DNA of 45,519 nucleotides from Pseudobutyrivibrio sp. (GTDB taxonomy: Bacteria; Bacillota; Clostridia; Lachnospirales; Lachnospiraceae), in assembly GCF_017471675.1 (NCBI RefSeq), contig NZ_JAFUSK010000091.1, positions 1 to 45,519 on the forward strand, read 5' to 3'. How positions within the stretch are numbered: position 1 is the first letter of the stretch; each line of letters begins with the position of its first letter. A program made the translations under genes and the position numbers. The notes beneath the pieces are model-generated. The model was not told the DNA's origin and did no database searches. It worked only from the letters and a program-made list of their open reading frames with translations. Shown in pieces: positions 18,629 to 35,603 of this stretch.

Positions 18629-19140
18629 AATTTTATTCCAATCCCTACCACTACTTCGTATACTTCATTAGAAAGCTTAGCCAGTCTTTCGTTTATTAGC
18701 CCTAAGGCTCTCATGTATTCCTTAGTACCTTCATCATAGCTTACCCCATCTTCAAATATGTTATTAGTAACTATTACAAGGGCAGCTGCTTTCTTAGACA
18801 AAGCAATTACATCATCTATTATCTTATCTGCACATTCTGTAAAAGAGACATTTCTTTCAACTGCAAACATTTCATTAGCCACTAGATTAGACATACATTC
18901 AAGAAGCACTATAGAATCAGCATCTACTATCGTATTTGCGATATCTGTAGGCTGTTCTATTGTGATGAAGCCCATGCCTTCTCTTTGCTTTCTATGCTTT
19001 TCAATTCGCCTATCAGCTTCTTCATCAAATGATTTCATTGTGGCTAGATAATATCTGTTTGGGTAATTAGTTTTACAAACTAAATCCTCAGCAAATGCTG
19101 ATTTACCACTACCACTTCCACCATATACTAATGTAATCAT
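18625..19140 (-). CDS. cobU: CobU: adenosylcobinamide kinase/guanylyltransferase
   Basis: This 171-aa protein has the P-loop GGSGSGKS at residues 7-14, YLAT, and the segment RRIEKHRKQR with the His that accepts GMP. It phosphorylates adenosylcobinamide and then transfers GMP from GTP. The C-terminal motif usually TNEVG...GIVP reads TNNIFEDGVSYDEGT here and has diverged, while the short second copy downstream keeps that motif. It overlaps cobT and cobS by four bases each. Confidence 0.88.
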   Translation of the reverse strand: MITLVYGGSGSGKSAFAEDLVCKTNYPNRYYLATMKSFDEEADRRIEKHRKQREGMGFITIEQPTDIANTIVDADSIVLLECMSNLVANEMFAVERNVSFTECADKIIDDVIALSKKAAALVIVTNNIFEDGVSYDEGTKEYMRALGLINERLAKLSNEVYEVVVGIGIKL

Positions 19141-20222
19141 GCTTCCTCTTTAAAATCCTTATACTGCTCCACTCCAGAATCGCCGAACTTTAATGCATCA
19201 TGAAATGCAATATCTACTATCCTAAGGGAAGATACCATCATAACTGCACCTACACCCTCGCCTACAGCCATAGCTGCATCAATTGCAGGCGTAAGTTTAA
19301 GCTTATTTACAAGCTTCTTTGCCACCGGTTCTTTACTAATATGTGATGGAATCAGATAATCCTTAGTATTATCTAATAACCTGTCAGCCACAAGAGCTGA
19401 TACCATACTAAGCATTCCGTCTAACACTACCGGCACACTATACACAGCACCACCAAGAATGATTCCTGTCATTGCTGCAAGCTCAAGACCACCAAAATTA
19501 CTGCAAATCTCCACTGGTGACAGACCGCTGTACATTGATAAGGCCATAGATACAACGGCACGCTTTTTGCTGAAGCCTTCATCATCTAAGCCAGCCCCTC
19601 TTCCGGTAACCGCCTCTGCATTCAAATCCAGCAGATAGCCTGCAATGACTGCAGCTGATGTGGTATTTCCGATTCCCATTTCACCAACCAGCAGTAAATC
19701 ATATCCACTTTCCTTGCTCTCCAAAGCTAAGTCCATACCAACCTGAACAGCTCTTGAAAATTCTTCAACAGACATAGCTGGCTGCTTTAAAAAATTGCAG
19801 GTTCCGTATTTCACTCTTCTATTTAGTGTATATGGCACCTCTTTGGCATAATTAATACCAACATCCACAGCCATAATATCTATCCCCAGGGATTTGGCCA
19901 TGACACCAGCAGTAGTAAGCCCTTTTCCAATATTTGTTGCGCAGATTCTAGTGACATCCTGATCTGCCTGACTCACCCCTTCTTCAACAATGCCATGGTC
20001 TCCACAACACACAATAAGCCTTGGATGATATAAATCAGGTGCATCAACGCCTTGAATGGCAGCGATTTTGGAATGAATATTCTCAAAGTTTCCAAAGCTA
20101 TCAATAGGCTTTGAAACCCTGTTCCATTCCTGCTTTACCTGTTTAATTTTTTCTTTATTAACAGGCTCTATTTTAATTTTATCCTCTAAAATGTCGTCAA
20201 ATAATACTCTAGTATCCCCCAT
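19137..20222 (-). CDS. cobT: CobT: nicotinate-nucleotide:dimethylbenzimidazole phosphoribosyltransferase
   Basis: This 361-aa enzyme activates the lower-ligand base of cobalamin to alpha-ribazole phosphate. It has KIAAIQG, CCGDHGI, GEMGIGNTTSAA, VTGRGAG and the catalytic Glu in VGEGVGAV near the C-terminus. Length is usual. No genes for anaerobic benzimidazole synthesis (bza) are in the window, so the base comes from another locus or from outside. The start ATG lies inside the end of cbiA, 14 bases before its stop. Confidence 0.92.
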   Translation of the reverse strand: MGDTRVLFDDILEDKIKIEPVNKEKIKQVKQEWNRVSKPIDSFGNFENIHSKIAAIQGVDAPDLYHPRLIVCCGDHGIVEEGVSQADQDVTRICATNIGKGLTTAGVMAKSLGIDIMAVDVGINYAKEVPYTLNRRVKYGTCNFLKQPAMSVEEFSRAVQVGMDLALESKESGYDLLLVGEMGIGNTTSAAVIAGYLLDLNAEAVTGRGAGLDDEGFSKKRAVVSMALSMYSGLSPVEICSNFGGLELAAMTGIILGGAVYSVPVVLDGMLSMVSALVADRLLDNTKDYLIPSHISKEPVAKKLVNKLKLTPAIDAAMAVGEGVGAVMMVSSLRIVDIAFHDALKFGDSGVEQYKDFKEEA

Positions 20223-21570
20223 AATTTTTCATAGCCTCCACAAAATTTTTGATAAAATCCGGATTAGAAAGATAATATAGATGTGGGAACCCCACGAACC
20301 CACCATTTGCCTTATGAATGCACTGCCAGCTTCTTGTTGAAGATGGCTTTGTTGCCTTACAATCACTTCCATTATTATCTGTATCATAATAATGAAATTC
20401 ATGCCCGTTAATCTTTCTTTCTCCATCATCTATTATAGCATATCCGAACCTAACAAGATGCCCTGTAAATGTGGCTTTTCCATTTATGGCAGAAACCATT
20501 TTATAAGCTGTATTATCACTATCTACTATCTCATCCATAAGATACATAAAGCCTCCACATTCAGCCATTATAGGCATCCTTTTTTCATAGGCTAATCTTA
20601 TTTCATTTTTTATTTGATTATTAATAGAAAGCTCCTTTAGATGGTTTTCTGGATAACCACCGCCAAGCAATATTCCACTAATACCTTCTGGAAGATAAGA
20701 ATCATATATAGGTGAAAAAAAGCAAAGTTCAATTCCAATGCTTTCAAATAGCTTTAAGTTTTCTTTATAATAAAAACAAAATGCTTCATCCTTTGCAACA
20801 GCAAGCTTTATCGTATTTACGGATTGCATACTGTTCATTAGTGCATCTAATTGCTCAGGTGCTTTAGCCTTTCCTATATCCTCACATGCCCCATTGGCAA
20901 GCTCCAATATCGTATCAACATCTATCTCTTCCTCAACCTTATTACCAAGAAGGGATAGCTGACTTTTAATATCTGCAATTTCCTCAGGAAGATATAATCC
21001 TAAATGCCTGCTTGAAATATTGATATCTGAAATATCAGAAAGGGTACCAAGATATTTTACGCCAAGCTCCTGTTCAATTATAGGCTTTAGAATCTGCCCA
21101 AAGCTCTTTGAAGTTTTATTTAAAATCACACCCTTAATAAGCTTATGCTTATCATAATCAATAAAGCCTTTTAAGGTAGCCACCACTGATTTGCCAGCAC
21201 CCTTGGCATTAACTACTAAAATAATCGGGCAATTTAGCACTCTTGCTAAATCATAGCTGGAGCCTGTTTCTTCAACACCCCTTACACCATCAAAAAGCCC
21301 CATTACACCTTCTATAACACTGATTTCACCAGTGCATTCTTTGCCGTAAATCCATCTGGTAACCTCATCCTCTGTAAAAAAAGTATCCAGGTTACCTGAC
21401 TCTATCCCTAGCACATTTCTGTGATACATAGGGTCAATATAATCTGGGCCACACTTAAAGCTGCAGGGCTTTACGCCTCTTTGCTTTAGGGCTGTAAGCA
21501 GGCCACATGTAATTGTAGTTTTTCCACTGCCACTGGCTGTGGCTGCTATCATAACTCTTGGTTTCTTCAT
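20209..21570 (-). CDS. cbiA: CbiA: cobyrinate a,c-diamide synthase
   Basis: This enzyme amidates the a and c side chains with glutamine and ATP. It has an N-terminal P-loop ATASGSGKTT, KCGPDYIDPMYH, and a C-terminal class-I-like glutaminase domain with the Cys in MAECGGFMYL and the His in HEFHYYD. The frame opens at 21693, but family proteins start at the ATG at 21570 (MKKPRVMIAA, giving 453 aa). GGAGG lies some 26 bases before this ATG; a TTG four codons upstream is closer to it. The 41 extra codons upstream look like an inserted element and not like CbiA. Confidence 0.9.
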   Translation of the reverse strand: MKKPRVMIAATASGSGKTTITCGLLTALKQRGVKPCSFKCGPDYIDPMYHRNVLGIESGNLDTFFTEDEVTRWIYGKECTGEISVIEGVMGLFDGVRGVEETGSSYDLARVLNCPIILVVNAKGAGKSVVATLKGFIDYDKHKLIKGVILNKTSKSFGQILKPIIEQELGVKYLGTLSDISDINISSRHLGLYLPEEIADIKSQLSLLGNKVEEEIDVDTILELANGACEDIGKAKAPEQLDALMNSMQSVNTIKLAVAKDEAFCFYYKENLKLFESIGIELCFFSPIYDSYLPEGISGILLGGGYPENHLKELSINNQIKNEIRLAYEKRMPIMAECGGFMYLMDEIVDSDNTAYKMVSAINGKATFTGHLVRFGYAIIDDGERKINGHEFHYYDTDNNGSDCKATKPSSTRSWQCIHKANGGFVGFPHLYYLSNPDFIKNFVEAMKNYGGY

Positions 21571-21705
21571 TTGAGTTTCCAATATTCTAATCTTCCTCCG
21601 CTCGTTACGGTCACAAGCCATTATATTCCTACGCTTCGCATGAAAAGCTCTGCTTAAGAAACATAAGAGCTTGTTACCTACGAGCTCATCCAAATGCTAA
21701 TCTAA
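21571..21705 (-). other. Odd spacer between cbiJET and cbiA, open in frame with cbiA
   Basis: This 135-base spacer stands out in an operon whose other genes overlap or nearly touch. Read on the minus strand it stays open in frame with cbiA and would encode 41 basic residues (MACDRNERRKIRI near the end) with no match to CbiA. It contains GAGCTC/GAGCTT-type short inverted repeats. It may be a second family of inserted repeat; I see no further copy in this window. Confidence 0.4.
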
Positions 21706-23751
21706 TTACAAAGAAAACGATACCACGTATACGGGATTTTGAGCTTGCATTACGTTGTAATCACCAATAGTTTTTGCTTTACTTATAGCAACTTGAACCA
21801 CATCAGCATCACTTATTGCATAATCCTTTAGGATACCATTAACCTCTGCTATAGTCTCAAGGGTAACCGCATTTATTACAACCCTTGTATTATTTCCTTT
21901 GGCTTTTATAGTCCTTAGAATCTCTTCTAGTCTGCCTCCACTACCGCCTATAAACACATGAGTAGGCGCAGGCAGGTTTTCTAATGCTTCTGGCGCAACT
22001 CCCTTGTATAGCTTTACATTCTTCAGATTGAATTTGTTAATATTAGCTCTTATAAGCTCACAGGCCTCTTCCTTAAACTCTACCGTATATACGTTAATTG
22101 ATGGGTGAAGCAATCCAATTTCAACAGAAACAGAGCCACTGCCTCCACCTATATCATAGACAACAGCATTCTCTGTAAGCCCTAGCTTGCAAATAGAAAG
22201 CGCTCTTATCTCTTCCTTTGACATAGGAGTCTTGTTACGCAAGAAAGCATCATCTGCTAATCCAGGTGATAACCTTCTGGTGGTAGGCTTTTTATTTTTT
22301 ATCATAAGAACCACAAGACCATCCTCTGGGAATGTGGAACACTTCATGGCACTTAATTTAACAATCTTTTCATAGGAATATAGATTAACGCCAGCCACTA
22401 TTTCATATTTAACATCGTAATCTTCTTCCAGCTTGCATAGGATTTCACCGATAATGCGAACATCTTTACCACCTGATGTAAGTGTAAAGACCTTTGCATT
22501 ATGCAAGGTAGCATCAATAAGCTTAGGTTGCCATACACTTTCTTCAATACCATGGCAGCTCATAACAACTGCATCATCATAGCTTTCCCCTATACGGCTT
22601 GCCAGGGCACTTACTGATGAAATGCCAGGCATTACATTTACCTTTATCCTACCATCTGCTTTAAGTGCATCCCTAAGCTTTTTTGTTCCACTATAAAATC
22701 CGGTATCCCCCGAAAACAGTACCAATGCATTAAGAATTCCATAAGGCAGTGCTTCAATCCGTTCATTTAATACAGGCATAATATCCTTCGCCAGGTAATA
22801 TGGATACTTCTTTCCCTTACACTCTATAGAAGAAAGCATCCTGGCAGCCCCAAATATAATGTCTGCATTTTGAATCGTCTCTTTAACCTCTTCCGTAATA
22901 GAGCCAAATCCCATTCCAAATCCTGCTAATGTAATATGGCATTTCACATCAGGAGTAATTTCTGAAAAAGCATTAGGCTTAAGGCTAACCTGTAAAACCT
23001 CTTCTAGCTTTTTAATTGCATCTTCATTAGATAAGCCTTCTGCTGAATCATTAGGCCTTTTTATGATGAAGCATTGTACCCCTTCTTCTTTTGCTGCATT
23101 TATTCGCTCAGCTTCTCCACTGGATTTGCCACTACTTTTAAGAACCATAATCTTAGCATTAGTTTCTTTTAGTTGAATTCTATTCATAGCCTTAGAAAAT
23201 GGTCCCTGCATTGCAATGATTTGCTTTCCTGTAAGCCCGTTATCCATGCATATTTTAAGGCTTTCAATGCTTGGAATCACTCTTACAACTAATCGCTCTT
23301 TCAAAGCTTCATTCTTGCAAAAGGCGCTTAGCTCTTTGCTTCCAGTTGTAAGAAATATAATTCCACTGGTAGATTCTAGTGCCTTTTCGCATGAATCAAC
23401 ATCTTCAAAGAAAGTACAATCTGTATAATCTACCTCGTCTGCATCACGGCACACTCTTATAAATGATGTATCTTTGTATGAAAAAACTGCGCTATCTATT
23501 TCCTTTTTTACAATTTCTGCAAAAGGATGAGTGGCATCTACTATTACATCTGGATTTTCAGCTTCAAACAGCTTTATCATTTGGTTACTGTCAAGCCTAC
23601 CTACCCTAACATCTATGCCATTATCACCTAGCACCATATCTTTGCCATATTCAGTTGCAACGCAGTAAATTACAGCTATCTTAGCCAGATTTAATTTCTC
23701 TGCCAGCTGTCTTCCCTCTGTAGTTCCACCAAAAACAATTGCTTTTTTCAA
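21706..23751 (-). CDS. CbiJ-CbiE-CbiT trifunctional fusion
   Basis: This 681-aa protein joins three corrin enzymes. Residues 1-255 are a CbiJ-type cobalt-precorrin-6A reductase (FGGTTEGRQLA, DATHPFA). Residues about 268-470 are a CbiE-type C5-methyltransferase (GFGMGFGSIT, FSGDTGFYSG, PGISSV). Residues about 485-681 are a CbiT-type C15-methyltransferase/decarboxylase (YDIGGGSGSVSVEI, FIGGSGG). The CbiE-CbiT join is common (CobL); CbiJ at the front makes one chain for three late steps. Translation begins at a TTG that overlaps the cbiH stop (TTGA). All three parts look complete. Confidence 0.9.
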   Translation of the reverse strand: MKKAIVFGGTTEGRQLAEKLNLAKIAVIYCVATEYGKDMVLGDNGIDVRVGRLDSNQMIKLFEAENPDVIVDATHPFAEIVKKEIDSAVFSYKDTSFIRVCRDADEVDYTDCTFFEDVDSCEKALESTSGIIFLTTGSKELSAFCKNEALKERLVVRVIPSIESLKICMDNGLTGKQIIAMQGPFSKAMNRIQLKETNAKIMVLKSSGKSSGEAERINAAKEEGVQCFIIKRPNDSAEGLSNEDAIKKLEEVLQVSLKPNAFSEITPDVKCHITLAGFGMGFGSITEEVKETIQNADIIFGAARMLSSIECKGKKYPYYLAKDIMPVLNERIEALPYGILNALVLFSGDTGFYSGTKKLRDALKADGRIKVNVMPGISSVSALASRIGESYDDAVVMSCHGIEESVWQPKLIDATLHNAKVFTLTSGGKDVRIIGEILCKLEEDYDVKYEIVAGVNLYSYEKIVKLSAMKCSTFPEDGLVVLMIKNKKPTTRRLSPGLADDAFLRNKTPMSKEEIRALSICKLGLTENAVVYDIGGGSGSVSVEIGLLHPSINVYTVEFKEEACELIRANINKFNLKNVKLYKGVAPEALENLPAPTHVFIGGSGGRLEEILRTIKAKGNNTRVVINAVTLETIAEVNGILKDYAISDADVVQVAISKAKTIGDYNVMQAQNPVYVVSFSL

Positions 23752-24503
23752 ATCTGATATCCTCGTTTTGTTACAAGCTTACCTTTTATAATTTCACTTT
23801 TAGAATTGCCTATAAATACTGTAGTAAACATATTTACAGAAGCATCCTTCAGCTCGTCTAAGGTAAGTACCTTTGAGTTAGTTCCTTCCCTTCCAATATT
23901 TTCTACATAGCCACAGGCTCTTTTATTATCTGCTCCCGCATCTAACATTATTTCGCAGGCTCTCTGTAGATAATCATGCCTCTTTTTACTAGAAGGATTA
24001 TATAAAACAATGGCAAAATCTCCCATTATTGCTGCCCTTAGTCTCTTTTCAATCACTTCCCATGGAGTAAGCAAATCGCTTAGACTGATTACACAGAAAT
24101 CATGATTTATAGGTGCCCCTAAAACTGCCGCACCTGATATAGCCGCTGTTACTCCTGGAATAACAATGATATTATCTTCCGTAAAATCTGAATTCGTATT
24201 TACGTATTCAGGAAGAAGCTCATACATAGGGGCTGCCATGCCATACACCCCTGCATCTCCGCTACAAATAAAAGCAACATTATTACCTTCATTAGCAAAA
24301 TCAAAGCATGCCCTGCACCGTTCTATTTCCTGCCGCATTGGAGTAGTAAAAAACTCTTTATCCTCAAAATACTCTTTTACCAAATCCACATAGACTGTAT
24401 AGCCTACGATAACATCAGATTTTTTCATGGCACTAAAGGCTTCATCAGTCATCATATTTCTGTCCCCAGGTCCTATGCCAATTATGTATATTATTCCTGC
24501 CAT
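23748..24503 (-). CDS. cbiH: CbiH: cobalt-precorrin-3 C17-methyltransferase (ring contraction)
   Basis: This 251-aa SAM-dependent methyltransferase has the start IIGIGPGDRNMMT, a GDAGVYGMA loop and the PGVTAA stretch typical of CbiH/CobJ. It methylates C17 and promotes ring contraction to the lactone that CbiG opens. It overlaps the end of cbiG by 13 bases and has AAGGAG seven bases before its ATG. Confidence 0.92.
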   Translation of the reverse strand: MAGIIYIIGIGPGDRNMMTDEAFSAMKKSDVIVGYTVYVDLVKEYFEDKEFFTTPMRQEIERCRACFDFANEGNNVAFICSGDAGVYGMAAPMYELLPEYVNTNSDFTEDNIIVIPGVTAAISGAAVLGAPINHDFCVISLSDLLTPWEVIEKRLRAAIMGDFAIVLYNPSSKKRHDYLQRACEIMLDAGADNKRACGYVENIGREGTNSKVLTLDELKDASVNMFTTVFIGNSKSEIIKGKLVTKRGYQI

Positions 24504-25501
24504 TTTATGCTCCTTAAATCTCTAGTGCCGTAAGCCTTTGTCATGCCATCACGTGCCTGTTTTTTAGCTATTAGCTTAGCCCCTACACACACTGCTGCTC
24601 TTTCACTTACGTTTCCTACGCCTACATTTTCCTTCACAAACTCTGATTCACTAAAATCTCCTGAAACCGATTCTAATTCCTCAACCATAAAGGTTATAAA
24701 TTTGCAATGAAGATATGCCGCAAGCTTAAGTAAGCCTATCTCATTTGCCTTTTTATCTATTGAACAAATTCCATATAGATTATCCTTAAGTTCTTCTAAG
24801 GTGTAATCCTCTAGGATAAAATCAAGCAATTCTTCAAAGCTTTTTCCTCTTTTACAGCCCATGCCAATTACTAAAGTCTTGGGCTTTAATATAAGGGTGC
24901 CATCATCTTTCTTTTTATCATTCATAAATACGAAGTCTATTTTTTCGCCACTTGCCTGATTAATATTTTTAGGCTCTTTATCTTGGAATTTTAAATCTTC
25001 GATTTCATTTTTGTAATAAACTATCTGGCCTTCTAAAAGCTTCATGGATACATCTTTAATCTTTGATTTATCAAGAATTATAAAGCCATTTCTTGCTGCA
25101 AAAGAATCTATAGCATATACACCTTCCACATCTGTTGCAGTAGTAATCACAGGATTTGCATTAAGTACTTTTGCAAAATCTCTCGCCAAATCGTTACCCA
25201 TCCCATAGTGTCCAGACAAAACAGGAATAACATTTAATCCTTTTTCATCAATAACAATCACTGGAATATCTGAAAGCTTATTATCTATAAAAGGTGCAAT
25301 AGTCCGTACAGCAATTCCCACAGCTCCAATAAAAATAAGCGGAATATGCCCCTCAAAGCTATCCCTTGCAAACTCCTTTAAAGATGTATTGTCATCCTTC
25401 ACTTCAAAAGTAGCATTGCCTAAGGCCTGTTCAAGCTTGCTATAAACCTTCCTACCTTCGTCGGTAAAATATGAAATTCTAATAAGAAAATTTTCAATCA
25501 T
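24491..25501 (-). CDS. cbiG: CbiG: cobalt-precorrin-5A hydrolase
   Basis: This 336-aa enzyme opens the lactone and releases the C20 carbon as acetaldehyde. It has the N-terminal domain ending in PVLSGHYGMGNDLA, a middle linker and the C-terminal domain starting IGMGCKRGKS. The start ATG at 25501 follows GGAGAG, which comes from the edge of repeat R1. Next gene cbiH overlaps it. Confidence 0.9.
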   Translation of the reverse strand: MIENFLIRISYFTDEGRKVYSKLEQALGNATFEVKDDNTSLKEFARDSFEGHIPLIFIGAVGIAVRTIAPFIDNKLSDIPVIVIDEKGLNVIPVLSGHYGMGNDLARDFAKVLNANPVITTATDVEGVYAIDSFAARNGFIILDKSKIKDVSMKLLEGQIVYYKNEIEDLKFQDKEPKNINQASGEKIDFVFMNDKKKDDGTLILKPKTLVIGMGCKRGKSFEELLDFILEDYTLEELKDNLYGICSIDKKANEIGLLKLAAYLHCKFITFMVEELESVSGDFSESEFVKENVGVGNVSERAAVCVGAKLIAKKQARDGMTKAYGTRDLRSIKWQE

Positions 25502-25510
25502 ATACTCTCC

Positions 25511-25560
25511 AAAGGCTTCTCCCTCTGGGAGAAGCTGTCACCGAAGGTGGCTGATGAGGG
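25511..25560 (-). repeat. Double-hairpin repeat R1 (short form)
   Basis: Minus-strand copy lying in the 65-base gap between cbiF and cbiG. It has the two hairpins of the family (GGTGGC...GTCACC type, and AAGCTTC-type GAGAAGC/GCTTCTC) and the ends CCCTCATC...AAGCCTTT. Confidence 0.85.
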
Positions 25561-25566
25561 CAACCA

Positions 25567-26454
25567 TCATCTACTCTTCCTAAACTCCGTCTCAAATTCA
25601 GCATCATATAGTTTCGACAAAGAATACCCCGACTTCGAAATCACATCCCCTACAAGCACCACAGCCAAATTCTTTATGCCATGAGCCTCAGCCGTTTCAG
25701 CCAAAGTCCCAACAGTACAAATATATTTTTCCTCATCTGGCCAGCTAGCCTTATAAACTATAGCCGCCGGTGTATCCTTAGAATATCCACCATTTATAAG
25801 TGCTCTTGATAGCTTATCCATCATACCACTACTAAGATAAATTGCCATAGATGCATTATGTGTAGCCAGCTTTTCAATAGATTCCCTTTCCGGTACTGCA
25901 GTGCGCCCAGCCATTCTTGTAATAATAAGCGTCTGGCTTACATCCGGAAGAGTATACTCCAGATTAAGGCTTGCTGCCGCGCCAAAGCATGCACTCACCC
26001 CCGGACAGCTTTCATACTCAATACCATTAGCTTCCAATATCTGCATCTGCTCAAGCACTGCGCCATATATACTAGGCTCACCTGTATGCAATCTAACAAC
26101 CATTTTCCCCTGCCTTGCAGAAGCAATTATCACAATCATTACCTCTTCAAGAGTCATGGTAGCACTATTATGAATCTCACAATTCCTCTTTGCATAATTC
26201 AAAAGCTCTGGATTCACTAAAGACCCAGTGTATATAATCACATCAGCCGCCTTCAGCAGATTCATACCTCTCACCGTAATCAAATCCGCCGCCCCGCAGC
26301 CAGCTCCAACAAAATAAACCAAAGGCTTCTCCCTTTTAAGGGGCGAAAGAGGTCCAGTGGACCTCTGCTCTGAGCCGACCGAAGCGGAAGCGGAGAAGAA
26401 GCTGTCACCGGAGGTGACTGATGAGGGTCTTTCCCCTTTGTTATTATCTATCAT
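25567..26454 (-). CDS. cbiF: CbiF: cobalt-precorrin-4 C11-methyltransferase with a repeat-derived N-terminal extension
   Basis: This 295-aa SAM methyltransferase has the core start VYFVGAGCGAADLITVRG, HTGEPSIYGA and the CPGVSACFGAAA stretch of CbiF/CobM. The family normally begins right at VYFVGAG, but here some 43 residues precede it and about 35 of these are encoded by repeat R2. Two starts are possible. The ATG at 26454 has AGAGG upstream and reads through the repeat. A TTG directly before VYFVGAG has AGGGAG six bases upstream, supplied by the repeat, and would give a normal-sized protein. Which is used cannot be decided from sequence. Confidence 0.88.
   Translation of the reverse strand: MIDNNKGERPSSVTSGDSFFSASASVGSEQRSTGPLSPLKREKPLVYFVGAGCGAADLITVRGMNLLKAADVIIYTGSLVNPELLNYAKRNCEIHNSATMTLEEVMIVIIASARQGKMVVRLHTGEPSIYGAVLEQMQILEANGIEYESCPGVSACFGAAASLNLEYTLPDVSQTLIITRMAGRTAVPERESIEKLATHNASMAIYLSSGMMDKLSRALINGGYSKDTPAAIVYKASWPDEEKYICTVGTLAETAEAHGIKNLAVVLVGDVISKSGYSLSKLYDAEFETEFRKSR
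26321..26427 (-). repeat. Double-hairpin repeat R2 (long form, inside the cbiF reading frame)
   Basis: Minus-strand copy of about 107 bases with the family ends CCCTCATCAGTCACC and GAGAAGCCTTTGG. A 50-60-base insert separates the halves and contains the palindrome AGAGGTCCA-g-TGGACCTCT. It lies in frame in cbiF. Confidence 0.85.
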
Positions 26455-26485
26455 AAAAATTTCCTCTCACTCTAAATCAATCTAT

Positions 26486-26842
26486 CTACATAATCCTCTC
26501 TTTAATCTTGGCATCTATATCTTCACAAACTGCCACAAAATTATTGTTTATATCATAATTAGAATATCTTAAAATCTTTATTCCCAAATCAGCTAAATAT
26601 TTATCTCTAACTAAATCAGCTTCATGTCCTTCTTTTTCATAATGCTGACTTCCATCTAGTTCTATTACTATTTTTGCCTTAGCACAATAAAAATCTACTA
26701 TATATTTTTCAAAGACTTTTTGTCTTTTGATTGTAATTGAATATGATTTTAAAAAGTCATACCAAAGATGTTTTTCCTCTTTGGTCATGTCATTTCTTAA
26801 GTTTCGAGAGTATTGCTTTAATTTAGGGTCCAGTTTTGGCAT
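26486..26842 (-). CDS. DUF559 (Vsr-like PD-(D/E)XK) endonuclease-domain protein
   Basis: This 118-aa protein has the DUF559 marks: RNLRNDMTKEE near the start, then KYIVDFYC with Asp50 and IELDGSQHYE with Glu61, Asp63 and His67, the likely metal-binding site of a nuclease fold related to Vsr and restriction enzymes. No methylase, toxin partner or transposase lies beside it. It has AAAGGA before its ATG. It interrupts the cobalamin operon between cbiD and cbiF and is bracketed by repeats R2 and R3 in opposite orientation. It has no place in cobalamin synthesis. Function unknown; a link to the repeats is inferred from position only. Confidence 0.85.
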   Translation of the reverse strand: MPKLDPKLKQYSRNLRNDMTKEEKHLWYDFLKSYSITIKRQKVFEKYIVDFYCAKAKIVIELDGSQHYEKEGHEADLVRDKYLADLGIKILRYSNYDINNNFVAVCEDIDAKIKERIM

Positions 26843-26887
26843 GGAAAATCCTTTCTGCTAAAAAGCGTTCTATAAATGTTATTACTC

Positions 26888-26943
26888 CCCCTCATCAGTC
26901 ACCTACGGTGACAGCTTCCCCCCTAAAGAGGGGAAGCCTTTGG
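26888..26943 (+). repeat. Double-hairpin repeat R3 (short form, in the 3' end of cbiD)
   Basis: Plus-strand copy CCCTCATCAGTCACC...AAGCCTTT with hairpins GGTGAC/GTCACC and CTTCCCC/GGGGAAG. It supplies the last dozen codons and the stop codon of cbiD and is inverted relative to R2 on the other side of the DUF559 gene. Confidence 0.88.
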
Positions 26944-28012
26944 ATTCTGCTAATAATCCAAATTCATTTGAATACAATAAACACTCTATTTTTATTCTAC
27001 CTTGGGCTCTGAAGTCTAGGTAGAATAGGATTCGTTCTAGGACGATATCCATTGTTGGCTTTAGTAAGCCTGCATCCTCTATGTGATGAAGTGCTTCTTC
27101 AGTGTTTAGGCAGGCTAGAATCTTTCTGGCTAGTTCAGCATCTGCGCCTGCTTTAATGGCGCAGGCTGAAAGAATTTCCATTCTGGCATCCGCCTCATGG
27201 GAATGGGTATTCATTATGCCGCCAGCTACCTTAACAAGCTTTCCAATGTGGCCTGTGATGGCAAGAGTTTCAAAGCCCATCTCACAAACCATGTCTACAG
27301 TCTCTCCTATGAAGTTAGAGCACTTTACACTTTTATCTAAATCATAGTCATAATTATCCTTCATAAATTTCAGGCCGTAGTTGCCTGGGGTTACGAAGGC
27401 TGTTTTAAATCCTAAGGCTTTCTTCTGGGAAAGCTCAACTCTTATTGTATCCACCAATGCTTTTGCACTCATTGGCTCAACGATACCTGTTGTTCCGAGT
27501 ATTGAAATACCTCCTACAATTCCAAGACGAGGATTGAAGGTGTGACTGGCAAGCTCTTTTCCTTCAGGAACAGATATGATTACACTAAGCTTTCCACAGA
27601 AATCAAAAAGCTTGCAGACCTGTAGCACTTCCTTTTCAATCATCTCTCTTGGCACATGATTAATTGCAGCATTTCCCACAGGCTGATCCAGACCTGGCAA
27701 TGTTACCCTGCCTACACCAAAGCCTCCATCTATGGTAATAGCACAATCTCCTGTATCACAGGATTCAACCATACTCACTGTAGCCACCACATGACTTCCA
27801 GTAGTCACATCAGGGTCATCTCCACCATCCTTTATAACAGCGCAGCTCACCCGCGACTCTTCTCGTTTAATATCTACAATATCCGCATTAAACATAATCC
27901 CTGCAGGAGTTTCTATTTCAATATTCAGTTTTTCCTTCCCCGACAAAAGCATGTAGGTCGCCGCCTTCGCAGCCGCCGCCCCACAGCTTCCCGTGGTAAA
28001 ACCTTTTTTCAT
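26903..28012 (-). CDS. cbiD: CbiD: cobalt-precorrin-5B C1-methyltransferase
   Basis: This 369-aa enzyme begins KGFTTGSCGAAAAKAA and has ITIDGGFGVGRVT, NHVPR and GGISILGTTGIVEPMS, all typical of CbiD. It methylates C1 in the anaerobic pathway and is therefore a marker for early cobalt insertion. The last residues, after ESK, come from repeat R3, which also holds the TAG stop; the natural CbiD end was probably replaced by insertion of the repeat. The core of the enzyme is intact. Confidence 0.92.
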   Translation of the reverse strand: MKKGFTTGSCGAAAAKAATYMLLSGKEKLNIEIETPAGIMFNADIVDIKREESRVSCAVIKDGGDDPDVTTGSHVVATVSMVESCDTGDCAITIDGGFGVGRVTLPGLDQPVGNAAINHVPREMIEKEVLQVCKLFDFCGKLSVIISVPEGKELASHTFNPRLGIVGGISILGTTGIVEPMSAKALVDTIRVELSQKKALGFKTAFVTPGNYGLKFMKDNYDYDLDKSVKCSNFIGETVDMVCEMGFETLAITGHIGKLVKVAGGIMNTHSHEADARMEILSACAIKAGADAELARKILACLNTEEALHHIEDAGLLKPTMDIVLERILFYLDFRAQGRIKIECLLYSNEFGLLAESKGFPSLGGKLSP

Positions 28013-28027
28013 GGAAAACTACCTTTT

Positions 28028-28654
28028 CTATAAGCTATATAGTAACGCATTTACGATGGCAGCGGCGATGTTGCTGCCGCCTTTGCGGCCTTTGTTGATG
28101 ATGTACGGAACTGAGGAGTTAAGGAAAAGTTCCTTGGCTGCCTCTACATTTACGAAGCCAACTGATACGCCGATGACAAACTCGGGTGTGAATATGCCTT
28201 GCTCCATCATTTCGTATAGGGAAATGAGAGCTGTTGGGGCGTTGCCTATGGCAAAGATTACTGGCATAGGCAGGGCTGCTGCTCGTTCCATGGATACAGT
28301 AGCTCTTGTAACCTGGCGTTCCTTTGCTTCCTTGGCTACGTCTTCATCTGCCATGAAGCAGTGTACCTGGCCTCCGAAGGATGCCAATTTCTTTTTGTTG
28401 ATGCCGGCTAATGCCATGTTAGTGTCAGTAACTATGTGAGCACCATTTTTTATTAATTCCTTGGCAAGATCAATTGCACCTTGCGAATAACACATGGTTT
28501 TTGCATAATCGAAATCAGCACTGGTGTGGATTACACGCTTTGTGATGGGAGCTTCTTCCTCGGGGATTGTGATTCCCAGGGAGTCTAGCTCGGCGGTTAT
28601 GATTTCGAAGCTTTTGTGTTCGATTTCGGTTGGTAGAATGTAGTCTATTTTCAT
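28028..28654 (-). CDS. cbiC: CbiC: cobalt-precorrin-8 methylmutase
   Basis: This 208-aa enzyme moves a methyl group from C11 to C12 to form cobyrinate. It has the catalytic His in RVIHTSADFDYA, TDTNMALAGI, the segment AIGNAPTAL and the C-terminal GRKGGSN. The frame opens at 28666, but the ATG at 28654 (MKIDYILPTEIE) has GAGGGTG upstream, part of repeat R4. It lies 15 bases upstream of cbiD in the same direction. Confidence 0.92.
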   Translation of the reverse strand: MKIDYILPTEIEHKSFEIITAELDSLGITIPEEEAPITKRVIHTSADFDYAKTMCYSQGAIDLAKELIKNGAHIVTDTNMALAGINKKKLASFGGQVHCFMADEDVAKEAKERQVTRATVSMERAAALPMPVIFAIGNAPTALISLYEMMEQGIFTPEFVIGVSVGFVNVEAAKELFLNSSVPYIINKGRKGGSNIAAAIVNALLYSL

Positions 28655-28659
28655 GTTCA

Positions 28660-28707
28660 CCCTCATCCGCCCCTTCGGGGCACCTTCCCCCTACTTAGGG
28701 GGAAGGC
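28660..28707 (+). repeat. Double-hairpin repeat R4 (short form, between cobQ and cbiC)
   Basis: Plus-strand copy of the second sequence type, CCCTCATCCGCCCC-TTCG-GGGGC followed by CCTTCCCCC/GGGGGAAGG. It carries the last codons and stop of cobQ and, on the other edge, the Shine-Dalgarno site of cbiC. Confidence 0.9.
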
Positions 28708-30166
28708 TCATTATTTCGTATATATAGTTTATATCGAGATTTGCTCGGACTATGTAGGCGAGTTTGTCGTATTCTTTTTCTTTCATGGCCATATAGTCCA
28801 TGGTTTCATCCGATAAGCTTAGGCCTTTTTTGGCTGCTAAGGACTTAGCAAGCTTTAGGGCTAAATCTCCATTGTCAAAACAGCCGTGTACATAGGTGCC
28901 AAATATATTACCGTTTTGATAGCTACTTACAAATTCTTCGCTAATTTTTGAGCGTCCATTATGTATCTCATAGCCTTCAAAATATTCTCCTGAGAGACTT
29001 TCGAAAATTCCGTCCATTATTCTAAAATGGCCTTTTGTCTGGCTTCTGTATTTGCCATCAACAATAACTGTATCCATAGGAATAAGCCCTAGTCCATTAA
29101 TTCTGCCTACTCCTGCGCCCTCAACTAAATCTGGATCACTGATGGTGTTTCCCAAAATCTGAAAGCCTCCGCAGATTCCTACTACAGGCCCATGGTTTGC
29201 AAATTTTTTGATGGCGGTAGACATGCCAGTTTCAATAAGCCATACCATGTCTGAAATGGTATTTTTGCTGCCTGGAATAATCACCATATCCGCCCCATCC
29301 AGCTCAGATGGTTTTGAGACAAATTTAACCTTTATGCCATCAATATTTTCAAATGGTGCCACATCAGTGAAGTTAGAAATCTTAGGTAAACGAATAACTG
29401 CAATTTCAATTACTGCATCGTCCTTAGCTAACCCCTTATTATCAAGCCTTTCGCTAAGACTATCCTCATCATCTATCATAAGCCTTGTATAAGGAATGGT
29501 TCCAACCACCGGAACGCCACCCCTGTCTTCTAGCATATCTATGCCAGAATCAAGCAGTGTTTTATCCCCTCTAAATTTGTTAATTATTAATCCTTTTACT
29601 CTATCTCTTTCATCTTCTTCTAAAAGCTCCAATGTTCCAAGCAATTGTGCAAATACACCGCCTCTATCAATATCTCCCACAAGAAGGACCGGGGCATCCA
29701 CCAGCTTTGCCATTCCCATATTAACAATATCATCTGCCTTTAGATTAATCTCCGCAGGGCTTCCTGCACCTTCTATAACTATTACATCTGCCCACTGAGC
29801 AAGCTTATTGTATGCAGCCTTAATATCGCTTATTAAGTTTTTCTTATAAGCAAAATATTCCCTAGCTGTCATGTTGCCTAGCACTTCCCCATTTACAATC
29901 ACCTGAGAGCCTACATCATTAGTAGGCTTTAATAGAATGGGGTTCATATATACACTAGGCTCTACACCTGCGCACTCAGCCTGCATTACCTGGGCGCGGC
30001 CCATTTCAAGGCCTTCCTTTGTTACGAAGGAGTTTAGGGCCATGTTTTGAGATTTAAATGGTGCCACTTTTAGGCCGTCTTGTTTAAATATTCTGCATAA
30101 GGCACCCACCAATAGGCTTTTGCCTACGTTTGACATGGTGCCTTGGATCATGATTACTTTTGACAT
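28691..30166 (-). CDS. cobQ: CobQ/CbiP: cobyric acid synthase
   Basis: This 491-aa enzyme adds amides at four side chains using glutamine and ATP. It has the N-terminal P-loop [33 protein letters not shown], and a glutaminase domain with the Cys in [11 protein letters not shown] and the His in GTYVHGCFD. The ends are touched by repeats: the final SLPPK and the stop lie in R4, and the GAGGGT before the start ATG lies in R5. The core is complete and of usual length. Confidence 0.92.
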
Positions 30167-30175
30167 ATATTCATA

Positions 30176-30220
30176 CCCTCATCCGCCCCTTCGGGGCACC
30201 TTCCCCCAGAGGGGAAAGGC
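30176..30220 (+). repeat. Double-hairpin repeat R5 (short form, between the importer ATPase and cobQ)
   Basis: Plus-strand copy with CCGCCCC-TTCG-GGGGC and CCTTCCCCC...GGGGAAAGGC. It fills nearly the whole gap between the ABC ATPase gene and cobQ, and its GAGGGT edge serves as cobQ ribosome-binding site. Confidence 0.88.
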
Positions 30221-30225
30221 ATAAT

Positions 30226-31017
30226 TTAGAGAAGCCTCCGAATTGATGTTGAATAGTTCCAGAGGCCGCTGCATATTATTTCTCCGGTGCCGGGGGTCAT
30301 TTTGTACATTGTTTCCAGGTTGGCTCCTGTTAGGACTTCTTCTGGGGAGCCAGTGACGTACACTTCATCGCCAGCGATTCCGATTACTTTATCAGCTACG
30401 GCTGGGACAAATTCTAATTCGTGTATAGACATGAGAACTGCAACATTCTTTTCCTTTGCCATTTTCTTAATTACCTTTAGAATATCCAGCTTATACTGCA
30501 AATCCAAAAATGAAGTAGGCTCATCTAAAACCATTATTCCTGTATCCTGGCAAATAGCTCTGGCAAGCATTATGCGCTGCTTTTGGCCATCACTGATTTT
30601 TGAAAAATCTTTATCTATTATCTTTCTTGCCCCTACTAAATCTATAGCATAATTCACAGCTTCCTTGTCTTCATCAGACAAAAAGCCTAATCTGCCTGTA
30701 TATGGATATCTTCCTGTGGCTACCACCTCAAAGCATGTCATAAGCTCAGGATGAATCCGCTCTGTCATTACCATAGAAACAGACTTTGCCACATCCTCTT
30801 CACGAAGGTTCGCCTCATTTACTCCATCAATGATAATGCTTCCTTCCAGCTTTTTTAGCTGCCTTACAATAGTCTTAAGCACTGTAGATTTGCCAGCCCC
30901 ATTGGCACCTATAAGGCATACTATCTCTCCAGGTAAAATATCTATGTTAACATTATTAAGTACAATAGATGTGCCGTAGCCCACCTTTAAATCTTCTAAT
31001 CTTATTCCCTTATCCAC
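30226..31017 (-). CDS. btuD: Corrinoid/iron-chelate type ABC importer ATPase (BtuD-like)
   Basis: This 263-aa ATPase has Walker A GANGAGKST, the Q-loop, a signature reading ISDGQKQRIM in place of LSGGQ, Walker B GIMVLDEPTSFLD and the switch His in SIHELE. It belongs to the FepC/BtuD group that works with FecCD permeases. The start is a GTG with GGGAGGT seven bases upstream and it overlaps the permease end by eight bases. Location in a B12-riboswitch operon makes a corrinoid or cobalt-chelate substrate most likely. Confidence 0.85.
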   Translation of the reverse strand: MDKGIRLEDLKVGYGTSIVLNNVNIDILPGEIVCLIGANGAGKSTVLKTIVRQLKKLEGSIIIDGVNEANLREEDVAKSVSMVMTERIHPELMTCFEVVATGRYPYTGRLGFLSDEDKEAVNYAIDLVGARKIIDKDFSKISDGQKQRIMLARAICQDTGIMVLDEPTSFLDLQYKLDILKVIKKMAKEKNVAVLMSIHELEFVPAVADKVIGIAGDEVYVTGSPEEVLTGANLETMYKMTPGTGEIICSGLWNYSTSIRRLL

Positions 31018-32026
31018 GGGATACCTCCCTTCTTGCCACCAATAGATAAATCACAACTGGTGCAAGAAAAACAGATGTAACTGCACTAATGCTAATTTCG
31101 GTTGGTGCAAAAGCTGTACGGGCAATGCAATCACACAAAAGGGTGATAATTGCTCCTCCTAAGAAACAGCCTGGCACCATCACAACAGGCTTGGCTGTTT
31201 TCATAGCCATTCGCATAATATGAGGCACAGCTATTCCCACAAAAGATATAGGTCCTGCAAAAGCTGTAACAGTTGCAGATAAAATGCTAGAAAGTAAAAT
31301 CAAAATTATTCTAATACGTTTTATATTTACACCCATATTTCTGGCATAATTCTCACCTAGCTGAAAAGCCCCAATAGGCTTAGAAAATATGAATGTACAA
31401 ATAACTGCAATAATCACAATTACAGATGATACAAGCACCTGTTCCATATTAATTCCAGAAAAACTTCCCAAGGACCAGTTATGAAGATTTACTATGTTTG
31501 TATCGTCTGCAAATGTAACTACAAATTCTGTTATAGCTGAACAGATATATCCAATCATTACTCCGCACACTACTAAAAGCGACATGTTGCGCACCTTCTG
31601 TGCCAATGCCATAACAGCAGCCATGGCAATAATAGAGCCGATAAATGCTGCAATGACCATTACAAGAGAGCTAATCATTACTCCCCTACCAAGCAAAAAC
31701 ACCATAGATAATGCAACGAAAAGCTTTGCCGCAGAAGATATTCCAAGAACATAAGGACCTGCTATTGGATTTCCAAAAAAGATTTGCAATAAATATCCAG
31801 ACACTGATAACGCCCCACCTAAAACTATGGCAGCAATAATCCTAGGAAGTCTGATAGAAAGTAAAATCCTTCCCATATAAACATCCCCAGGATTAATAAG
31901 AGATTTACTGATATCCACTACAGAAATATCTGCACTTCCAACTCCCATTCCTACAAAAAAGAATATAACAAGTGCACAAATCATCACTAGAAAACAAACC
32001 TTATATCTTTTCTTATTTGAATCCAT
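31010..32026 (-). CDS. btuC: FecCD-family ABC importer permease (BtuC-like)
   Basis: This 338-aa protein has about nine or ten membrane segments and family motifs RLPRIIAAIVLGGALSVSG (near residue 55), GPYVLGIS and GPISFVGIAVPHIMR. These permeases import corrinoids, haem and iron-siderophores. The gene is between the lipoprotein and ATPase genes, which together make a full importer. Confidence 0.88.
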   Translation of the reverse strand: MDSNKKRYKVCFLVMICALVIFFFVGMGVGSADISVVDISKSLINPGDVYMGRILLSIRLPRIIAAIVLGGALSVSGYLLQIFFGNPIAGPYVLGISSAAKLFVALSMVFLLGRGVMISSLVMVIAAFIGSIIAMAAVMALAQKVRNMSLLVVCGVMIGYICSAITEFVVTFADDTNIVNLHNWSLGSFSGINMEQVLVSSVIVIIAVICTFIFSKPIGAFQLGENYARNMGVNIKRIRIILILLSSILSATVTAFAGPISFVGIAVPHIMRMAMKTAKPVVMVPGCFLGGAIITLLCDCIARTAFAPTEISISAVTSVFLAPVVIYLLVARREVSRG

Positions 32027-32030
32027 TTTT

Positions 32031-33557
32031 CTACTCCCTTAGCCTTATAAAGCAATCTCCCTTATCAAAAGAGCCCTCTAGAATTTCATTAAGCTCCTCT
32101 ATAAATTCTGCCACATTTGTACTCTTTTGGAAATAACCTTCTCTTAAACAATACACATTTTTTTGTTTTATCGCCTTAAAATCCCCCAAAGACTGCTCTA
32201 AAGCTATCAGCTCATCCAGAGTTTCAATCTCCCCTTCAATGGTGCTGTTGTATATAAGAACATCAGCATCTAATGCTCTAATATAAAAATCCTCAGTGGT
32301 AATTTTCATGGTGGATAATGCATTATCTTCTGTTACGCTTATATCATCAGGCACATAATGTCCCCCTGCCATAGATATCATGGTAGCAATATAATCCTTA
32401 GGCTTTCTTACTATTATTTGTCCATTGGAATTAACAGAAAAGAATGCCACCTTTTTTCCATTAGACTGAAGCTGCCCGATTTTATCTACTCTTGCAACCT
32501 GCTGATTAAAATAAGCTTCCGCCACATCCTGCTTATCATACAGTATCCCGTATAATTTAATCCACTCTAATCTTCCCAGAGGATTTTCCTCGTAGCTGGA
32601 ACGCTCTACCATCACAGGGATTCCTATCTCCTCTAGCTTTTCCTTAACCTCTGGATTGTGATATATCATGGTATTTTCTATTGAAAAATTACAGCCAGAT
32701 GATAAGAGCAATTCATAATCAGGTGCTGAGTATTTTCCAGCGTAAATTATTTCTCCTGATTTCATAGCAACTTTTGCTGCTGATACATACCAATCCTTTG
32801 CCTTTGTGCCAGACAATGCAATACTTTTAAGAGCATCTATTTGGCATACCATATCCATCACAGATGTTGACACCAGATAGGTCTTTGAAATATCTGGTAA
32901 ATATTTAATATAATCAGATACCCCTTTAGGCCTTTCATGTGCCCCCTTCATAGGCTTAAGAAAGCACTGCATGCTATCACCGCTTCCAATTGTGATTGCA
33001 GCATATTCATTACTATCACTATCTACATAAAAATCCACAGAATATTCCCTGGCATAATCAAGTGGATAGGAGCTTACAAAAGTTAAATCACCAAATGAAC
33101 GGTCTTCATTCTTAGCTACTGATTTATTACCAACTGTCGATTCTTTCTTTTCCTGAACCGATGTACCTTTTTTCTCAGAAAAAACAGTGAGCTCATACTC
33201 TATTTCATGAGGTGTGCTCATTGCAGTGGTATCGCCTATTACAGTGAATGGTTCATTGAATGAATCAAATGGTATGGTAAATACGGAGTTGGCATTTGCT
33301 TCTGCCTCATTATCGTATCTAATATCATCTACTATCATGTAATCGTAGTTAGAGCTGGACCAAACAAGCTTTACCGTATTTCCCGATTCAGAAGTTACTA
33401 CTTCGGCTGGAGATTCTACAGTGACTTTGCCGCTGCCACCAGTAAGTGTTACCTCACAAAAGCAGGTTCCATATTCAGTTTCGTTGTTATTAAAAAAGCT
33501 GCAGGCTGTTAGAAGTATAGCCAGCGCTGCAGCGATTATATATAGATTTTTTTTCAT
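32031..33557 (-). CDS. Substrate-binding lipoprotein of the corrinoid importer, with an extra N-terminal domain
   Basis: This 508-aa lipoprotein has a signal peptide with lipobox LTAC and Cys19. Residues about 28-130 form an extra beta-rich domain (SSNYDYMIVDD, FTIPFDSFNEPF, AMSTPHEIEYELTV) ahead of the substrate-binding part (about 150-508), which follows the helical-backbone pattern of BtuF/FepB proteins. The extra domain resembles the C-terminal domain of the neighbouring CbiK lipoprotein. It should capture a corrinoid or related chelate at the cell surface. Its ATG lies only three to four bases after the GAGGG of repeat R6, a short spacing. Substrate is inferred from the operon. Confidence 0.82.
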   Translation of the reverse strand: MKKNLYIIAAALAILLTACSFFNNNETEYGTCFCEVTLTGGSGKVTVESPAEVVTSESGNTVKLVWSSSNYDYMIVDDIRYDNEAEANANSVFTIPFDSFNEPFTVIGDTTAMSTPHEIEYELTVFSEKKGTSVQEKKESTVGNKSVAKNEDRSFGDLTFVSSYPLDYAREYSVDFYVDSDSNEYAAITIGSGDSMQCFLKPMKGAHERPKGVSDYIKYLPDISKTYLVSTSVMDMVCQIDALKSIALSGTKAKDWYVSAAKVAMKSGEIIYAGKYSAPDYELLLSSGCNFSIENTMIYHNPEVKEKLEEIGIPVMVERSSYEENPLGRLEWIKLYGILYDKQDVAEAYFNQQVARVDKIGQLQSNGKKVAFFSVNSNGQIIVRKPKDYIATMISMAGGHYVPDDISVTEDNALSTMKITTEDFYIRALDADVLIYNSTIEGEIETLDELIALEQSLGDFKAIKQKNVYCLREGYFQKSTNVAEFIEELNEILEGSFDKGDCFIRLRE

Positions 33558-33560
33558 TTA

Positions 33561-33656
33561 CCCTCATCCGCCCCTTCGGGGCACCTTGTCTCGCCTCCCG
33601 GCTCGGTCGTTGCTAAACAGGCTCCACTGGAGCCTAGCAACCCATAGGGGGAAGGC
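33561..33656 (+). repeat. Double-hairpin repeat R6 (long form, between cbiK and the binding-protein gene)
   Basis: Plus-strand copy of 96 bases with the ends CCCTCATCCGCCCC and GGGGGAAGGCTT. Its central insert has a nested hairpin, GTTGCTA...TAGCAAC outside AGGCTCCA-c-TGGAGCCT, and a CTCGGTCG stretch also seen in R2. It begins next to the cbiK stop codon. Confidence 0.88.
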
Positions 33657-33657
33657 T

Positions 33658-35235: not shown

Positions 35236-35277
35236 GTTAATCCTCCTAAAATTCATTTGGTAATTTTGACACGAGAA

Positions 35278-35307
35278 ATAAAAAGACTGCTATTAAATAG
35301 CAGTCTC
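35278..35307 (-). terminator. Terminator of the cobalamin riboswitch expression platform
   Basis: Minus strand AGACTGCTATT/AATAGCAGTCT stem followed by TTTTTATTT, between the riboswitch aptamer and cbiK. It should stop transcription of the whole operon when cobalamin is bound. Confidence 0.88.
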
Positions 35308-35377
35308 TAAAATCAAAGCTTGGCACATAAAAACCTAAAATGCGTTTTGCTAATCTGATTCGAGTTCCGCAAATCAA

Positions 35378-35548
35378 AATTACCTGATATAGGCAGGTCT
35401 CCTGACTTCGATCATCATTTGCACTCTCTTCCCAAGACTAGCTCAGTGATATGAGTACAAACTCCCTAACACAGTGACGGCTTCGCTCTGGATTCTCACC
35501 AGATTCCCTTTTCACCTATGCAAATTAATATTCCATAGGCACCTAAAT
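35378..35548 (-). ncRNA. Cobalamin (B12) riboswitch
   Basis: On the minus strand the leader has the conserved B12 box AGTCAGGAGACCTGCC (35407-35392), an upstream AGGTGCC start, the GGGAATCTGGTGAGAATCC block and GCCGTCACTGTG. These come in the right order and spacing for the cobalamin aptamer. It is followed by an intrinsic terminator at 35278-35307, so control is by transcription termination. It should regulate the chelatase, importer and synthesis genes down to cobD. The space 35257-35603 holds only this leader and its promoter. Confidence 0.95.
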
Positions 35549-35600: not shown

Positions 35601-35603
35601 ACC

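Follow-up and report, generated by a model that had tools for sequence, protein, structure and literature searches.

Contig NZ_JAFUSK010000091.1 of Pseudobutyrivibrio sp. (GCF_017471675.1; 45,519 nucleotides, hereafter the window) contains, between cbiF and cbiD of a cobalamin operon, a unit of about 615 bp (26324-26938) in which a single DUF559 gene lies between inverted copies of a hairpin repeat. This unit is probably a minimal mobile element of the repetitive extragenic palindrome (REP) kind, whose sole gene encodes a Vsr-like nuclease, the single repeats and the tail-to-tail repeat pairs being its non-autonomous copies. We base this on the architecture of the unit, the association of such genes with repeats, the co-variation of repeat and protein, the correlation between gene presence and repeat copy number, the occurrence of filled, empty and decayed sites, and the purifying selection and conserved residues of the nuclease. 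The parts of the unit and the two genes that border it are:

26486..26842, minus strand: DUF559 (PF04480) gene, 118 aa, PD-(D/E)XK / Vsr-like nuclease (open reading frame and profile match)
26324..26427, plus strand: R2, left terminal repeat, long form with an extra palindromic insert in hairpin 1, tail TGATGAGGG toward the gene
26889..26938, minus strand: R3, right terminal repeat, hairpin 1 of 9 bp, hairpin 2 of 6 bp, unpaired tail TGATGAGGGG toward the gene (fold z -4.16)
25567..26454, minus strand: cbiF, first codons read through R2 (leader MIDNNKGERPSSVTSG...; name confirmed by NCBIfam)
26903..28012, minus strand: cbiD, last codons read through R3 (name confirmed by NCBIfam)

Repeats and gene of the unit

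The first-pass annotation had described a DUF559 gene between inverted R2 and R3 as a 620-base unit in the cobalamin operon. The coordinates, the complementarity of the repeats and the profile match confirm it, at about 615 bp. The segments 26398-26427 and 26889-26918 are inverted over 30 nt (97% complementary), and a second pair, 26316-26343 and 26919-26946, over 28 nt (82% complementary). For comparisons among genomes we used a motif-free flank score, the highest-scoring inverted alignment of the 250-bp stretches on each side of a gene, with 15 as the passing value, since the first cross-genome motif was too narrow and matched few loci outside Pseudobutyrivibrio. The window gene (L140) scores 27.5, and none of 40 control positions in its locus scores as high.

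Each repeat is composed of hairpin 1 (stem start GCTTC or CCTTC), hairpin 2 (6-bp stem, 3-nt loop) and an unpaired tail, GATGAGGG. In the fold set, in which the L080 segment did not include its repeat, R3 takes the form of two hairpins followed by the unpaired tail, as does the plain repeat within 25507-25562, and the long form R2 adds hairpins to this. In the window genome (G000), 55 copies were found with a pattern allowing up to 2 mismatches and 65 with a looser one, and the same patterns read backwards gave 0. The other genomes of the family (200 screened, nearly one per genus) have at most 4 matches each, nearly all chance-like by eye, except in G153, which is of the same genus. The pairing of hairpin 2 is kept through double changes, with 96.9% of cells paired (30 copies, 16 distinct). 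Three of its 6 pairs changed on both sides, as high a number as in 13 of 500 shuffles, and no shuffle among the 500 attains its covariation score. At its left border the repeat is sharply defined: all 66 distinct occurrences (with orthologues counted) have G there, preceded by A or T. Two subtypes couple bases of hairpin 1 with the base that precedes the tail; of the 56 distinct full matches, 23 are G-C-T, 20 are C-G-G and 13 are mixed, the last being probably spans of the search expression over two copies. Close tail-to-tail pairs, 14-15 nt apart, were found 4 times in the examined G000 loci, together with one head-to-head pair, and two tandem pairs are present in other loci. The DUF559 unit looks like such a tail-to-tail pair with a gene in its gap. 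We also considered an Rfam RNA family as the identity of the repeat and rejected it, as the scan of 19000-36000 gave nothing at the repeats up to E 0.5, its sole results being the cobalamin riboswitch and a sub-threshold IS009 match at 33735-33926.

The 118-aa protein matches PF04480 with 100.5 bits (cut-off 20.6; E 6.3e-29) over profile positions 2-108 of 109, and it is the one DUF559 match of the assembly. An alignment of 54 sequences has eight invariant residues (D50, E61, D63, G64, Q66, H67, D76 and R79), of which we take the acidic ones and the histidine to serve PD-(D/E)XK-type catalysis. Among clade-A orthologues the ratio of non-synonymous to synonymous changes (dN/dS) is 0.07-0.30, with 0.48 for one clade-B pair, which indicates that the gene is under purifying selection. 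The structure model has a mean pLDDT (predicted local distance difference test) of 78. The profile of the clostridial proteins finds 3hrl as the nearest solved chain (E 8.9e-20), a solved relative of the family, followed by 3r3p, a 'mobile intron protein' (E 0.0048). PDB hits at E 0.04 and above are chance-like, except perhaps PvuRts1 I. The family, PF04480, presumably corresponds to COG2852, and it also holds YcjD and Caulobacter VsrA.

No Vsr chain was retrieved from the PDB by this profile, and PF03852 (Vsr) was not matched by the window protein, for which PF04480, PF18741 and PF10881 alone were reported at E 0.001. The likeness to Vsr is taken from two papers (PMC1189080, PMC12907096) and from the partial DUF559 matches of Vsr proteins. 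YcjD has been placed in the PD-(D/E)XK superfamily, with a profile that detects Vsr (PMC1189080). In the 200 family genomes, PF04480 was matched in 28, with the full short DUF559 in G000 only. The other 27 matches are partial, in frames of 149-180 aa (Vsr-like) or in large proteins. All 10 of the shorter proteins scanned (from 25 control proteins) are PF03852 Vsr, a match that sets them apart from the window protein. A role as defence system was rejected, the PADLOC matches being weak and partial (DpdF, 1.9e-8; mREase_II, 1.3e-5).

Association of DUF559 genes with inverted repeats

From GTDB contigs, the best 80 of 230 matches were kept, a set leaning to close relatives, which gave 79 clostridial loci of 51-95% identity. 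Seventy-four could be scored (5 have short flanks), and 55 of them have an inverted flank match, against 4 of 2960 control positions in the same loci. With four tail motifs, a tail pointing inward was found on at least one side in 69/79 loci (controls, 54/2370) and on both sides in 45/79 (controls, 0/2370). The 71 distinct neighbour pairs of this tail test are an overcount, as several loci of one 16-row clade share flanks. The question raised by the first-pass annotation, whether DUF559 genes are flanked by the repeat more often than chance, is thus answered in the affirmative, and both the flank score and the inward-tail counts speak against a chance neighbourhood of gene and repeats.

All 14 DUF559 genes from Pseudobutyrivibrio have inverted flanks (controls, 0/560). 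Six of them also belong to the 79 loci, as L061-L066 and L141-L146 are from the same genomes. The Vsr-like control genes, with bounds set as the longest frame through the match, gave 0 of 24 (24 of the 25 were scored). An even sample of 398 genomes from the phylum contained 29 with a DUF559 match at 1e-10, and 28 of the 32 places were scored, leaving out one with a short flank, two without locus and the window's own. Three of 18 small DUF559 genes passed (controls, 0/540), and ten longer frames, including L219 with 122.7 bits, had a negative flank score.

Filled, empty and decayed sites

Units with genes of clade A, that of the window among them, stand at the cbiF-cbiD junction and those of clade B at cbiD-cbiC. 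In G219 the unit is at a third junction, cbiF-cbiP as judged by eye. The first-pass annotation had asked for intact cbiD-cbiF junctions without the unit, and these are present in relatives: among the genomes parsed, the distance between the two genes is 83-136 bp in seven unit-less genomes and 569-670 bp in seven filled ones, with four more empty by eye. Together with the flank counts, such junctions support its proposal of a non-classical mobile element with the single repeats as non-autonomous relatives. The DUF559 gene, in an intergenic gap, has a complete repeat on each side, the two being inverted. The further features used in these comparisons are:

25514..25560, plus strand: R1, single repeat between cbiF and cbiG
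27985..28075, minus strand: cbiC-cbiD junction, empty in the window

At the cbiC-cbiD junction, G221, G222 and G224 carry a single repeat, inserted at the end of cbiC without visible duplication, and G203, G204, G205 and G225 a clade-B DUF559 unit. The window has the empty form of this clade-B site, and the filled form of G203 starts directly after the shared GTAGTTTTCC. G206 kept the right flank and a decayed right repeat of the clade-A unit and lost the gene; exact patterns find 1 and 0 repeats in this genome. The genes of L097 and L122 are 91% identical in DNA, and the homology stops at the outer edges of the repeats, which gives a unit of about 450 bp.

The site of R1 has an orthologous repeat of another subtype in L062 and L065, and it looks empty in G206. 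The orthologous repeats at this site (L062, L065, L066) differ as whole modules, the two hairpins and the base preceding the tail all changing together, as if replaced from another copy. Such differences would fit cutting followed by repair from another copy.

Repeat number and co-variation with the protein

In 29 Pseudobutyrivibrio genomes, with two tail types summed, the 12 with an intact gene have 9-99 repeat cores and the 16 without have 0-40 (Mann-Whitney p 3.4e-5, genomes taken as independent). G213, with a gene fragment, was placed in neither group. Clade-A tails are 79-89% of the cores in the eight genomes with a clade-A gene and number 0 in G204 and G225, which have clade B only. Clade-B tails are present in all twelve gene-bearing genomes, fewer in those of clade A, so the separation of the clades is one-sided. 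Genes of both clades are present in G203 and in G205, the clade-A gene accompanied by GATGAGGGT or GATGAGGGG tails and the clade-B gene by GATGAGGTGT tails, which indicates that the host lineage alone does not explain the co-variation.

On a tree of 85 clostridial DUF559 proteins, 78 of them with tail labels, the tail type changes 13 times, compared with 38.8 when shuffled, and 0 of 200 shuffles are as low. The deep split separates GATGAGG tails from most GAGGGATTG tails, and a small clade (L107, L131, L137, L139; GAGGGATTG or GAGGAATTG tails) falls on the GATGAGG side. Repeats of the GATGAGG type have a median of 10 in 25 genomes with that gene type and of 2 in 23 with other tails (p 0.005; 50 of 71 loci; G641 holds both types and was counted with the GATGAGG group). 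There are clear exceptions to the rule, among them G658 with 174 such repeats.

Possible mechanism and alternative explanations

We suggest that DUF559 is the mobiliser of the repeat, which it would cut in folded single strands. When the strand becomes single at a replication fork or in a transcription bubble, the hairpins would fold, and DUF559 would recognise the hairpin pair with its unpaired tail and cut at the edge of the repeat. By copying or joining, host repair could then bring the repeat, or the complete pair with its gene, into another AT-rich gap at the end of a gene. The tail is likely the specificity element, since it is the conserved unpaired part and follows the protein clade. 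As a hydrolytic nuclease cannot carry the strand on a tyrosine, the copying would have to use host repair.

Several results weigh against this interpretation. Direct-orientation flank matches are also enriched (22/74; controls, 20/2960), as are outward tails (16/79; controls, 62/2370), so the repeats cluster near the gene in more than one arrangement. In the phylum sample, the passing genes are 3 of 6 canonical ones (>84 bits) and 0 of 12 divergent ones (48-63 bits); the homologues without repeats that the first-pass annotation considered damaging to its proposal thus turn up in part, in the divergent PF04480 genes, and it is apparently with the canonical lone DUF559 genes that the repeats are associated. 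In other phyla the flank score is passed by 8 of 17 genes, with the tails outward in some. Two of the 16 gene-less genomes, G153 (40 cores) and G226 (23), are rich in repeats without DUF559, the DUF559 hit of G153 being spurious (23% identity within a 728-aa frame), and a strict one-to-one rule of repeat and gene is broken by them. Specificity between the deep clades is only statistical. We saw no target duplication at the single repeat of the cbiC-cbiD junction, nor at the units compared, a small number of sites, and no movement was observed. In the experimental work nearest to the subject, a DUF559 protein is regarded as a mismatch-repair enzyme (PMC12907096). As a separate observation, the repeats in which G153 and G226 are rich are of the GATGAGGTG type.

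A HuH transposase (Y1/RAYT, where RAYT is REP-associated tyrosine transposase, or IS200) encoded elsewhere could move the repeats, with DUF559 as a passenger. Y1_Tnp matches exist in 10 of the 29 genus genomes, among them the gene-less and repeat-rich G153 (four, short and partial) and G226 (three, of equal score). We consider this improbable, as the window genome gave no such match and neither did 8 of the 12 genomes with intact DUF559, four others (G200, G206, G209, G218) have Y1_Tnp yet 0-11 repeat cores, and the full repeat core is present in 0 of 18 Y1_Tnp loci (up to 1.5 kb on each side), three of which hold 1-2 isolated tail motifs. Less easily dismissed, although still rather unlikely, is a variant of the mechanism in which DUF559 would work like a homing nuclease: it would break both strands at repeats or at empty sites, and recombination would copy the repeats or the unit by gene conversion, with no transposition proper. 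The module-wise differences between species at the R1 site agree with it, and so does the profile hit to 3r3p, which we take to be I-Bth0305I. Against it, homing genes interrupt their own target, whereas the DUF559 gene has a complete inverted repeat on each side, and the single repeats at many unrelated sites suggest that new sites are entered without homology. EDxHD homing endonucleases such as I-Bth0305I have been described (PMC3943268).

The stable hairpins at gene ends in the cobalamin operon would also suit ordinary host terminators or mRNA hairpins, with DUF559 adjacent by chance. This we find scarcely credible given the both-sided inward pairing (45/79 compared with 0/2370), the conserved unpaired tail, the agreement of tails with the protein tree and the sporadic presence of the repeats between species of one genus. 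It is also very improbable that DUF559 is a host mismatch-repair nuclease of the very-short-patch (VSP) kind, beside which a selfish repeat family found a safe site or came to regulate the gene. PF04480 relatives without repeats do exist, and the SOS response of Caulobacter cells lacking the ScmA methyltransferase depends on the DUF559 protein VsrA, a dependence that the authors interpret as mismatch repair going awry (PMC12907096). The gene is, however, sporadic (a full short match in 1 of 200 family genomes, the other 27 hits partial), lone DUF559 genes stand in unrelated operons, and Vsr-like genes are flanked in 0 of 24 cases. A repair gene with adopted repeats is possible for divergent DUF559 and unlikely for the window gene.

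Comparison with known systems

The closest parallel to the DUF559 unit are REPs and bacterial interspersed mosaic elements (BIMEs) with their RAYT (TnpA-REP). Both systems have a single gene between two inverted palindromic repeats, many scattered repeats with inverted pairs, two repeat subtypes, a correlation of gene presence with repeat number, and co-variation of repeat and protein (RAYT side: PMC2817692, PMC8266576). The DUF559 unit differs in encoding a PD-(D/E)XK-type nuclease and not a HuH tyrosine transposase, so that no covalent tyrosine intermediate would be expected, and in its repeat of two hairpins with a G-rich 3' tail. The first-pass annotation had compared a Vsr-fold nuclease acting on hairpins with RAYTs acting on REPs; architecture, copy-number correlation and co-variation agree with the analogy, which does not extend to the enzyme; the window genome has no RAYT-type (Y1_Tnp) match.

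Miniature inverted-repeat transposable elements (MITEs) are short non-autonomous inverted-repeat elements mobilised by DDE transposases. Our unit, by contrast, encodes DUF559 only, and at the few sites compared we saw none of the target-site duplications expected of MITEs and classical insertion sequences. DUF559 and the EDxHD homing endonucleases share a likeness of fold, and in both a nuclease of related kind serves, or would serve, as the protein of a mobile element, with 3r3p as a weak profile hit. We know of no flanking repeats of the DUF559-unit kind for these endonucleases. They are long multi-domain proteins of group I introns (PMC3943268). The accessible literature on DUF559, YcjD and VsrA treats the family as repair or unexplained nucleases without a link to repeats, and in the accessible text of open-licence papers we found none tying DUF559 (YcjD, PF04480, COG2852) to repeats.

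We lean, if only slightly, to a wider view as well, in which lone canonical DUF559 proteins would be the enzymes of a new and widespread REP-type class. A Vsr-like PD-(D/E)XK nuclease would act on hairpin repeats in place of a HuH transposase, and such elements would account for many of the G+C-rich intergenic repeats that lack an explanation in Clostridia, Deinococcus, Alphaproteobacteria and cyanobacteria, possibly including BoxC in E. coli (with ycjD). Short hairpin repeats of obscure origin are found in many bacterial genomes and RAYTs account for some only. A second, unrelated enzyme paired with repeats would provide a source for such repeats and a role for the DUF559 family, and it would mean that populations of REP-like sequences have originated repeatedly, by different chemistries. 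At about 450-620 bp, the autonomous form would rank with the smallest mobile elements known, and a nuclease that selects folded DNA by stem and tail would be a useful biochemical object. Here we place the system within the REP kind; new class would be the better term if the enzyme were proved.

Other phyla and Escherichia coli

Eighteen regions with DUF559 genes were taken from plasmid or phage records of other phyla. One, L196, encodes a very large protein and was left out of scoring. Of the remaining 17, 8 passed the flank score (controls, 6/680). Lone DUF559 genes of these phyla are in unrelated operons, namely paaD/paaZ, three hpa arrangements, pnt and suf. In Deinococcus and Azospirillum (L186, L197, L201, L202) the inverted repeats beside DUF559 seem tail-outward by eye, and they are inward in Clostridia.

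In E. coli KE47, the DUF559 gene (L203:2930-3600), presumably ycjD, beside fabI, has two G+C-rich repeats in opposite orientation directly downstream, the first of which overlaps its 3' end. A different palindrome stands upstream, just before its start, and the gene scores negative in the flank test. Matches to a 46-nt query taken from the second downstream repeat occur in 5375 of 5426 E. coli genomes, at a median of 18 places. Reversing the E. coli repeat pattern leaves it almost unchanged, so a reversed control is uninformative. We take BoxC as the candidate identity of this repeat. A published listing gives BoxC with 22 copies found and 32 known (PMC2267715). As E. coli carries a DUF559 gene beside such repeats, the question can be tested in a laboratory strain.

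Other features of the window

The operon has profile matches for CbiG, CbiF, CbiD, precorrin-8 methylmutase and cobyric acid synthase, with a cobalamin riboswitch (Rfam) upstream at 35375-35561 on the minus strand. Its remaining repeats are:

28660..28707, minus strand: R4, single repeat, CGG subtype, hairpin 2 GCCCC..GGGGC
30176..30220, minus strand: R5, single repeat, CGG subtype, hairpin 1 slightly degenerate
33561..33656, minus strand: R6, long-form repeat, palindromic insert GGCTCCACTGGAGCC

Six repeats thus lie in about 8 kb around the DUF559 gene (25514-33656), compared with 65 to 78 cores in 3.1 Mb, both as bare counts. Some REPs have been reported to be dense near RAYT genes (PMC2817692).

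The host genes are translated through the repeats, which gives CbiF a repeat-coded leader (26324-26454) and CbiD a repeat-coded tail (26889-26960). The CbiF profile match begins at residue 46, and the first 45 residues of the frame are partly coded by R2. That of CbiD ends at residue 354 of 369, with the C-terminus beyond it coded by R3. In relatives without the unit, CbiF starts near a YFVG motif and CbiD has a different C-terminus. The cbiD frame also reads back through the repeat in clade-B genomes. At 4999-5249 there is an array of short imperfect direct repeats with CATG/GATG units.

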